The notes beneath the pieces are model-generated. The model had not been told where the DNA came from and did not search any database. It saw only the letters and a list, made by a program, of their open reading frames with translations. A stretch of DNA of 40,913 nt from Candidatus Woesearchaeota archaeon (lineage in GTDB: Archaea > Nanobdellota > Nanobdellia > Woesearchaeales > ARS49): contig QZIM01000003.1 in NCBI GenBank assembly GCA_003599055.1, forward strand, positions 1 to 40,913, in the 5' to 3' direction. Shown here piece after piece: positions 24,219 through 36,430 of the stretch; the stretch's first letter is position 1; each line of letters begins with the position of its first letter. The position numbers and the translations under genes are program-made.

Positions 24219-24248
24219 TTTTGCGCGAGTTATACGGCGCAGTCTTCT

Positions 24249-24290
24249 GATAACTGAGAACTGAAAACCAAAGACCAATTGCCAACTCCT
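24249..24290. repeat. Heptamer array 2 (6 units)
   Basis: Units GATAACT, GAGAACT, GAAAACC, AAAGACC, AATTGCC, AACTCCT. The array ends four bases from the stop codon of proS (24295-24297), again at the 3' end of a minus-strand gene. Confidence 0.8.
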
Positions 24291-24294
24291 GCGT

Positions 24295-25740
24295 TCAGTA
24301 GCTTTTCGCAAACAGGGCAATCGCGGTTGCGGGCTTGTCGCATTTGACGCATTTTCCTTTTGGCTGCGGCTGGTCAAATGGCAGGGTCAGGCATTTTGCG
24401 CCTTCGGTTGCTGATTTTATGTGTTCGGCGCATTCTGCTGTGCAGCACCAGGGTGCGTAGATGAGTTTACGCTCTTCAATGGCTTTTGCAAAGTCGCGCC
24501 AGTTTTCCGCCTTGACATTGTTTTCGGCGATGAATTTTTGCGCGTTTTTGAAGAGGTCGTGCTGCATACGTTCGAGTTCTTTTGGAATGTATTCTGCAAG
24601 TTCGCCAAATGGCACAAATGTCTTTTTGCCAAGGTCGCGGCGAACAACGACTGCGTGTCCTTTTTCGAGGTCTTTTGGGCCGACTTCAAGGCGAAGGCAG
24701 ACGCCTTTGAGTTCGTGTTCGTTGAATTTCCAGCCGGGCGTGTAGTGGTCGCGGTCGTCAACAAGGACGCTCGTTCCGGTTTTTTCAATTATTTTTGCGA
24801 TTTCGTGGCATTTTTTCACGACTTTTTCCTTGCTGTCATCGAACATAATGGGGACGATGACGCAGTGGAGCGGCGCGACGCGCGGGGGAATAATGATTCC
24901 TTTGTCGTCGCCGTGGAACAATATCATGGCGCCAATGGAGCGCGTGCTGAATCCCCAACTGTTTTGGTACGGGTGGGCTTTTTTGCCGTTTTCGTCAAGG
25001 AAATTGATGTTGAAGCTTTTTGCAAAGCGCTGGCCAAGGTGGTGTGATGTTGCCGCTTGAACTGCTTTGCCTGACGGGGTCAATGTTTCAACAGAGGTTG
25101 AGTAGTCTGCGCCGGCGAATTTTTCGTTTTCGCTTTTGCGGCCTTTGATGACGGGAACGGCAAGGAGCTCTTCAAAGACGCGGCGATATAATTCCAGGAT
25201 GTCAAGGACTTCTTTTTCCGCATCTTTTTTGTCTGCGAATGCCGTGTGGCCTTCTTGCCACAGGAACTCGCGGCCGCGAAGGAAGGGGACGGGGTGCTTG
25301 AATTCCCATCGGACGACGTTGACCCATTGGTTGATTTTGAGGGGGAGGTCGCGGTAGCTTTGTATCCATTTTGAGAACGCGTCGTACATAATGGTTTCCG
25401 ATGTTGGGCGGATTGCAAGCCGTTCGCCCAAAGGGGTGTGCCCGCCGTGGGTGACCCACGCAACTTCCGGGGCGAATCCTTCGACGTGTTCTGCTTCTTT
25501 GGTGAGGAGTTTTTCGGGAATGAAGAGGGGAAAATAGGTGTTTTGGACGCCCATTTTTTTGATTTCCGCATCAAAGAAGGCAGTGAGTTTTTCCCAGATG
25601 GCAAAGACGCGTGGGCGAAATATCATGCAGCCGGAGACGTCCGTGTAGTCTGCAAGTTCTGCTTTTTGGATGACTTGTGTGTACCATTCGCTGATGTCTT
25701 GGGACTTTTTGACCGTGAGCCCTTGGGTGCTGTCTGCCAT
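24295..25740 (-). CDS. proS: Prolyl-tRNA synthetase, archaeal/eukaryotic type
   Basis: 481 residues. Class II motif 2 (VVRWEFKHPVPFLRGREFLW) and motif 3 (GFSTRSIGAMILFHGDDKGI) are clear, as are the proline site (RPTSETIMYDAFSKW) and the anticodon domain. The C-terminal extension with CC, a single Cys, CVKC and a final aromatic Tyr (FAKSY) is the zinc domain of archaeal and eukaryotic ProRS; there is no bacterial INS editing domain. It charges tRNA-Pro with proline. It is leaderless with a TATA box 23-32 nt upstream and followed directly by heptamer array 2. Confidence 0.97.
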   Translation of the reverse strand: MADSTQGLTVKKSQDISEWYTQVIQKAELADYTDVSGCMIFRPRVFAIWEKLTAFFDAEIKKMGVQNTYFPLFIPEKLLTKEAEHVEGFAPEVAWVTHGGHTPLGERLAIRPTSETIMYDAFSKWIQSYRDLPLKINQWVNVVRWEFKHPVPFLRGREFLWQEGHTAFADKKDAEKEVLDILELYRRVFEELLAVPVIKGRKSENEKFAGADYSTSVETLTPSGKAVQAATSHHLGQRFAKSFNINFLDENGKKAHPYQNSWGFSTRSIGAMILFHGDDKGIIIPPRVAPLHCVIVPIMFDDSKEKVVKKCHEIAKIIEKTGTSVLVDDRDHYTPGWKFNEHELKGVCLRLEVGPKDLEKGHAVVVRRDLGKKTFVPFGELAEYIPKELERMQHDLFKNAQKFIAENNVKAENWRDFAKAIEERKLIYAPWCCTAECAEHIKSATEGAKCLTLPFDQPQPKGKCVKCDKPATAIALFAKSY

Positions 25741-36034: not shown

Positions 36035-36064
36035 CTTGTGCGATGAAAACAAAGGGCTGGTTTT

Positions 36065-36162
36065 GGCAACTGAAAACTGAGCACTGAAAACCAATAACAA
36101 ACCACCAACCACAAACCACCAACTACAAACTACCAACCACCAACTACAAGCCACCGACTACC
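36065..36162. repeat. Heptamer array 3 (14 units, GANAACT grading into AACYACM)
   Basis: Fourteen consecutive heptamers: GGCAACT, GAAAACT, GAGCACT, GAAAACC, AATAACA, AACCACC, AACCACA, AACCACC, AACTACA, AACTACC, AACCACC, AACTACA, AGCCACC, GACTACC. The array ends one base before the stop codon of the minus-strand gene 36164-36430. It is the longest and cleanest of the three arrays. Confidence 0.92.
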
Positions 36163-36163
36163 A

Positions 36164-36430
36164 TCAAAGTCCAAACGCCTGCGTGAACTCTTTCACTTTT
36201 GCAAAGTCTGCGACAAACTTGCGTCCTTCGTCGGTTATTTCGTAGTGCATTTTGCCTTTGTGTTCGGTTTGTGCAAGGAGTTTTCGCTGCATAAGTTCGT
36301 CAATGTACACTTTCATTCGTTGGTGTGATAAATTACTTTTGTAGAGGAGGTGGGTGGGGAGGATTCTGCCTCCTTTGTCAAGTGCGGCCTTGAGCATATC
36401 ATACACGATGTCGATTTTTGCGCGTTTCAT
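36164..36430 (-). CDS. Archaeal winged-helix regulator (HTH_45-like)
   Basis: 88 residues that match the small archaeal winged-helix type: DIVYDMLKAALDKGGRILPT, LLYKSNLSHQRMKVYIDELM, then KLLAQTEHKGKMHYEITDEGR with the GxxYxITxxG wing. It should bind DNA as a dimer. Its ATG lies inside the upstream membrane-protein gene (32-base overlap), so the pair is co-translated and may form a membrane sensor with a cytoplasmic regulator. Heptamer array 3 follows its stop codon. Confidence 0.85.
   Translation of the reverse strand: MKRAKIDIVYDMLKAALDKGGRILPTHLLYKSNLSHQRMKVYIDELMQRKLLAQTEHKGKMHYEITDEGRKFVADFAKVKEFTQAFGL

Follow-up and report, generated by a model that had tools for sequence, protein, structure and literature searches.

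Skew-oriented heptamer arrays in a Woesearchaeota genome and their link to S23 (23S rRNA intervening sequence) genes

Degenerate heptamer arrays in the window and across the genome

What kind of element repeats every seven nucleotides for some 14 units while the units themselves vary is the question raised by one locus of the stretch analysed here (the window; 40,913 nucleotides, contig 14 of a Candidatus Woesearchaeota assembly, G000). This assembly is an 88.7% complete MAG of 1.15 Mb in 26 contigs, all of which were covered, and its archaeal host is evident from a full-length match to the SSU_rRNA_archaea model (1408 bits); coordinates prefixed with C give contigs of the assembly named. The locus (array 3, plus strand, 36,061–36,167) comprises about 14 heptamers in the phase xACyzAw, and the 14 units that an earlier note had placed at 36,065–36,162 are read, in the common phase, at 36,068–36,165. 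An early zone of AACTGAA, AACTGAG and CACTGAA (36,068–36,088) is followed by a late zone (36,089–36,165) that begins with AACCAAT and continues in YACMAAC units (AACAAAC, CACCAAC and so on to the last, TACCATC), the end of which is met by the TGA stop (36,164–36,166) of a minus-strand ORF (36,164–36,430, ATG at 36,430). Array 1 (plus strand, 1,031–1,093), previously counted as eight heptamers at 1,035–1,090, has nine, nearly all of the early type (TTCTGAA, AACTGTT, TTCTGAA, AACTGAG, AACTGAA, GACTGAC, AACCGAT, AACTGAT and AACTAAC), the last of which (reverse complement GTTAGTT) contains the TAG stop (1,089–1,091) of a minus-strand gene at 1,089–1,925. Array 2 (plus strand, 24,245–24,286) was given as six heptamers at 24,249–24,290; about six are present (TTCTGAT, AACTGAG, AACTGAA, AACCAAA, GACCAAT and TGCCAAC), but only about four are strong. 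It adjoins the end of a minus-strand gene (24,295–25,740) that is named from its sequence as prolyl-tRNA synthetase-like and is 81% identical in the congener G001. All three arrays start directly after a minus-strand stop codon. Array 1 and the start of a gene at 48–788 flank a 40-bp direct repeat, TAAGGTTTCGCATGGTAAAGTACGGCTGTCGTC... (positions 776–815 and 992–1,031, 93% identical, copies 216 bp apart), which has the look of a promoter region that was duplicated.

In self-matching at period 7, arrays 1, 2 and 3 score 17.0, 12.5 and 28.0, respectively, whereas 40 simulations of the full window under a Markov-2 model reached at most 11.5 (mean 8.4). Arrays 1 and 3 are thus far outside the simulations, while array 2 is marginal by self-similarity alone and draws support from units, polarity and orientation that match those of the other arrays.

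Arrays occur throughout G000 and form a real family, as a genome-wide count of the kind proposed by the earlier note revealed. At a score of at least 14, 38 segments have period 7, compared with 1, 0, 2, 0 and 5 for periods 4, 5, 6, 8 and 9, and the remaining periodic signal lies at the harmonics 14, 21 and 28. A model of the units (score at least 25) recovered 100 unmerged segments versus one in a Markov-3 control genome; these merge into 79 arrays, 77 of them intergenic. Intergenic tandem heptamers with an AACTGA core, as in TAACTGA-type repeats, were found at 34 AACTGANAACTGA sites versus none in a reversed control. The arrays are polar, with 5' units AACTGAN or AACCGAN and 3' units YACMAAC (phase xACyzAw), and of the 52 arrays that could be scored, 50 run from early to late units and two the other way. 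The consensus words GANAACT and AACYACM noted earlier are therefore both present, but belong to opposite ends of a single polar array rather than being rival motifs. Units vary at four of seven positions in ordered zones, not as the near-identical copies of a simple-sequence repeat, in keeping with the earlier impression of more variation than in a slipped microsatellite; the accompanying statement that the period never breaks was too strong, as several arrays elsewhere contain one-base slips (C3:50526, C15:3759, C21:4210). Array length reaches about 19 units, and density is uneven between contigs (0 to 46 arrays per 100 kb). Near-pure runs within otherwise degenerate arrays, (CACTGAC)12 at C16:5013-5114 and (TACAAAC)13 at C24:2293-2418, are probably recent expansions.

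Long strings are shared between arrays far above the level of within-array shuffles, but below that of a first-order unit grammar, and for the latter reason were discarded as proof of copying between arrays. A mobile cassette defined by shared flanks was also rejected, the similarity being due to overlapping windows or, at five loci, to an upstream region that is repeated. The 5' flank TTTTTATTGTATTATGCCTRTTCGTTCTGAT is common to five arrays (C3:45894, C20:8672, C22:72, C25:813 and, more weakly, C21:4210) and reaches at some loci into repeated upstream regions, perhaps of a multi-copy gene family with attached arrays. An Rfam search of five array loci gave no match.

Orientation and turnover between congeners

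The A/C-rich strand of the array is the GC-skew-positive strand in 74 of 77 G000 arrays (p ~1e-18), which by the usual rule is the leading strand, as is presumed for this genus. In composition the arrays are the opposite of their surroundings, and the orientation is therefore not a mutational bias. Each of the three exceptions, C9:6993 (7020-6953), C16:4944 (with 5013) and C24:9506, is a G-rich arm followed, along the leading strand, by a C-rich arm. GC skew as such is unusually strong in G000, typically 0.4–0.6 at third codon positions and of one sign per contig in nearly all contigs; it is much weaker in the sampled family members.

Relative to the array, the neighbouring genes are opposite/opposite in 30 cases, same/same in 19, same/opposite (convergent) in 16 and opposite/same (divergent) in ten, so divergent, promoter-containing gaps are under-used (ten versus ~22 expected). 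Where a gene faces an array, the array reaches or enters its stop codon (median about -1 to -5 nt), and arrays lie 16–1005 nt, never less than 16 nt, from same-strand or downstream start codons; their limits at stops and starts look as if bounded by selection. The earlier hint at RNA 3' ends found no support, as orientation tracks GC skew (also in all 105 arrays of G001) and not gene direction, and on the same grounds a regulatory 3' UTR was rejected as the main explanation.

G001 was the one congener compared and shares ~70% nucleotide identity with G000 over alignable DNA. It too has period-7 arrays, an outcome that could have gone against the family proposed in the earlier note: 61 segments have period 7 at the same score cut-off, two have period 6 and none period 8. 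Its units are different ones, namely CCTTCNT, CCTAATA, CCTACAA, ACTACAA and GCCAACA. A motif-free scan of G001 yielded 105 arrays, 105 of which run against the local skew, compared with 714 opposite to and 2138 the same as the skew among random G001 56-mers. Between the congeners the period is kept and the sequence turns over. The replichore-skewed orientation of KOPS-like signals is found in both G000 and G001, but not the conservation of a word between relatives. In 36 relatives the AACTGANAACTGA word occurs once or not at all, and short samples from 16 further family genomes and two from the order (~280 kb in total) contained no convincing arrays.

Array positions are mostly independent between the two species: syntenic junctions carry an array only in G000 in 19 cases, only in G001 in 46 and in both in 12 (7.6 expected, Fisher p=0.07). 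ACTAC-type units occupy the same gap in both at C4:49034 and C5:18549, and some late-zone units may be ancestral. Where G001 alone has an array (35 junctions), the gap is wider in that species by a median of 134 bp (p ~4e-10), and genes that overlap in G000 are separated in G001 by 60–140 bp with an array. The G001 arrays are insertions at gene junctions. Junctions with an array only in G000 are not wider than in G001 (n=15, median -7 bp, p=0.36). Some G001 arrays open with a G-rich complementary arm and a loop, both short, and repeated, MITE-like short hairpins (GGTTGAAGGTATAAGGTGGAAGGATGAAGA-loop-TCTTCNTCC) head C-rich arrays, e.g. at C8:8466, C24:48925 and C12:12672. A complementary arm (score at least 12, within 120 bp upstream) was found for 0 of 77 G000 and nine of 105 G001 arrays, and the arrays were accordingly not regarded as hairpins in general.

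S23 genes between heptamer arms

S23/IVP (PF05635, 23S_rRNA_IVP), a four-helix-bundle protein, is the protein of 23S rRNA intervening sequences (IVS). G000 has two S23 genes, one with arms (C24 9096-9410) and one without (C2:15002). The orientation exception at C24:9506 is the arm directly upstream of the former gene, downstream of which lies a C-rich arm; the 5' arm of this complete copy reads ...GTTGTCGGTAGTCAGTTTTCAGTTGTCAGAC and the 3' arm GTCTGAACACTGACGTCTGATAACTGATTACCAAC. Besides this one complete copy, G000 has a few gene-less pairs of G-arm and C-arm, and most of its arrays are solo and C-rich. In G001 the S23 gene syntenic to the C24 copy is framed likewise, in ACTAC units, and a second one has arms in CCTTC units. 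Three of four S23 genes (one of two in G000, two of two in G001) thus lie between inverted heptamer arms in the species' own units. The intact G001 S23 element at C9:15040 runs against the skew. PF05635 is also present in four other genomes of the family, the small samples of which were without convincing arrays.

The arrangement recurs in 46 reference S23 loci (17 plasmid and 29 IMG/VR) that were picked regardless of repeats. Within 100 bp, arms of period 7 flank 14 of 17 plasmid loci and arms of period 8 another two (3.1% and 0% of control windows, respectively); among the 29 IMG/VR loci the numbers are 25 and one (controls 6.1% and 0.2%), giving 39 loci with period-7 and three with period-8 arms overall. 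Across the 46 loci, G exceeds C in 34 of 38 5' arms (C exceeds G in three), and C exceeds G in 24 of 27 3' arms (G exceeds C in none). Complementary flanks were found in 33 of 46 loci versus four of 46 mismatched loci, and 42 loci use 31 distinct units. From these loci we derived the rule that arms are heptamers, rarely octamers, G-rich on the 5' side and C-rich on the 3' side. The G000 and G001 arrays fit its C-rich type and keep the proximal-to-distal unit order of the complete G000 copy.

Period-8 arms are those of L252, L253 and L276 (Gemmatirosa, Picosynechococcus and one IMG/VR contig); as such arms exist, the period belongs to the element and is open to change. A heptamer-armed copy from Azospirillum lies inside a gene recognised from its sequence as 23S rRNA, the classical home of intervening sequences. 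On three cyanobacterial plasmids (L243, L251, L253) S23 genes with arms lie inside cas operons, twice between cas6 and cas4 and once between cas10/cmr2 and cmr3. A phage collection searched for S23 gave no match.

Origin of the arrays

The link of heptamer arrays to S23 is strong, and from it we infer both derivation and movement: the arrays are likely to be solo C-rich arms of S23/IVS-type selfish elements. The full element would consist of a G-rich heptamer arm, the S23/IVP gene and a complementary C-rich arm, which is the layout of the 23S rRNA IVS, here mostly outside rRNA. The window arrays, which have neither an S23 gene nor a second arm, and most other G000 copies would derive from full elements as solo arms; as most arrays are without a second arm, they are at best half an element. 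Array polarity would then reflect the loop-to-base order of a stem, as in the complete C24 copy. Copies would be taken up or maintained in a single orientation with respect to the replication fork, and this replication-locked orientation suggests entry or survival via fork-associated single-stranded or nascent DNA. The arms may subsequently be lengthened or homogenised in 7-nt steps, probably by slippage or else by recombination, and purifying selection would stop them at stop codons and promoters. The S23 protein may act in the element. An origin of the arrays from S23 elements is favoured over S23 elements built from arrays because inverted complementary arms surround the gene.

An alternative in which S23 plays no part, its genes merely sharing the same tolerant sites, is that the arrays are heptanucleotide simple-sequence repeats (reportedly the 'LSSR' heptamers of Mrazek et al.) generated by replication slippage, favoured with the G-poor strand as lagging-strand template. 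Strand-locked orientation would be natural for such repeats, and the homogeneous runs (CACTGAC)12 at C16:5013 and (TACAAAC)13 at C24:2293 look freshly slipped. Seven is also the commonest long unit in many prokaryotes (PMC4679880). However, independent slippage would not yield a common vocabulary, a unit grammar and 5'-to-3' polarity at ~80 loci, nor does it give insertions between overlapping genes or complementary arms on both sides of one gene family; we regard it as an unlikely origin of the arrays, although it may lengthen the arms. The near-absolute skew orientation in two species, independent of gene direction, together with the uneven contig density (0 to 46 per 100 kb), would also suit polar chromosome signals (KOPS-, Chi- or AIMS-like) that are read by a translocating protein along the replichore and kept in orientation by selection. 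A chromosome-wide signal should keep its sequence and spacing, whereas these arrays enter stop codons and vary freely in length, G001 has other words at largely other sites, and the 16 sampled family genomes have no convincing arrays, which makes this reading quite improbable.

The position of the three window arrays directly after minus-strand stops, the many arrays elsewhere that abut stops and the under-use of divergent gaps would be expected of RNA elements that act in regulation or at transcript 3' ends (terminators, protein-binding 3' UTRs) or of translational operators as proposed for Beggiatoaceae. We consider this very improbable, as orientation by replication means that opposite strands are read in different transcripts; in addition, the five array loci searched were without an Rfam match. 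Replication-locked orientation is typical of retroelements and single-strand transposons, and S23 is regarded as kin of Avd, the accessory protein of diversity-generating retroelements, both of which speak for an element copied by its own reverse transcriptase or Y1 (IS200/IS605, RAYT) transposase. Yet neither RVT_1 nor Y1_Tnp was found in the 88.7% complete G000, for which reason these enzymes were rejected as drivers, and no terminal hairpin is common to the G000 arrays; such an origin appears most improbable.

Among known repeats, the nearest named relatives of the arrays are the TAACTGA heptamers published from Beggiatoaceae, Cyanobacteria and Bacteroidetes (MacGregor 2015, PMC4679880). 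The earlier note had called the sequence unfamiliar from archaea; the host is indeed an archaeon, but the word itself was already published. As in marine Beggiatoaceae, the core is AACTGAN, and the TAACTGA repeats are likewise intergenic, sporadic over lineages and mixed with related heptamers in some hosts; in one sample, eight Microcystis sets between stop codons share chromosomal orientation (PMC4679880). TAACTGA repeats are, however, mostly exact, of 2–6 units, forward and just upstream of start codons (PMC4679880), whereas the G000 arrays have degenerate units in two zones, keep their distance from start codons and take their orientation from the replication strand, independently of genes. 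S23 is unmentioned in PMC4679880. The likeness in style to cyanobacterial STRR, seen earlier, holds and extends to the Xanthomonas and Nostoc heptamers GGGAATC and GGGGA(T/C)T, which are intergenic and often form inverted pairs (PMC4692102); STRR-like G-rich units (GGGAGTA, GGGTGTA) occur at S23 loci of Nostoc and Calothrix plasmids. The host here is archaeal, neither it nor the units being those of STRR, and the Xanthomonas heptamers, of other units than in G000, are explicitly without leading/lagging preference (PMC4692102). No link of the heptamers in PMC4692102 to S23 or mobile elements is reported there.

The 23S rRNA IVS with an S23 (IVP) ORF of Coxiella and Leptospira has complementary arms that form a stem around the S23 gene, and in Coxiella a strain-variable number of GACAGAT heptamers precedes the gene of what was called a selfish element (PMC4990558). 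It differs in lying in a 23S rRNA helix, from which it is cut out by RNase III; the G000 copies are archaeal, lie between protein genes and are mostly without the gene and one arm. The arrays further resemble REP/REPIN sequences and MITEs as short, intergenic, non-coding multi-copy repeats that are probably non-autonomous kin of a gene-bearing element, but are 7-nt tandem and sequence-fluid, with no fixed palindrome or target duplication found, and G000 is without a Y1 transposase.

The papers considered here treat heptamer repeats (STRR, TAACTGA, GGGAATC) and the S23/IVP protein as puzzles of their own. The present data tie the two together, through S23 genes framed by heptamer arms at plasmid and IMG/VR loci and through an archaeal genus seeded with what would be solo arms, which point one way along replication in words that differ between species. 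We found no report in the open-access literature that joins intergenic heptamer arrays to S23. More tentatively, a single cross-domain mobile class, for which we propose the name S23 heptamer-stem elements, could stand behind many prokaryotic heptamer repeats, including TAACTGA, STRR and the present arrays, with the period of 7 (sometimes 8) kept, the sequence free, copies gained or kept in one fork orientation and the 23S IVS as the case that landed in rRNA; we hold this to be possible, though somewhat short of probable. The source of a sequence-independent 7-nt period, the fork-bound orientation and S23 as a mobile-element protein are now testable, and such arrays should not be taken for 3'-UTR or promoter signals. 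In bacteria, orientation did not significantly follow the local skew at 8-kb loci (17 versus 13), and a scan of IMG/VR for the two-zone pattern returned none. In 257 Gb, the exact two-zone pattern AACTGANAACYGANAACCAAYNACYAAC occurs at 30 places, compared with a chance expectation estimated at far below one. Its hosts are Hymenobacter and other Bacteroidota, Dolichospermum, Aphanizomenon and other cyanobacteria, Desulfobacterota, Poribacteria and Granulicella, and PF05635 was present in 23 of 25 bacterial genomes with a two-zone array (up to 12 copies) versus none of 14 control genomes, in counts uncorrected for phylogeny.
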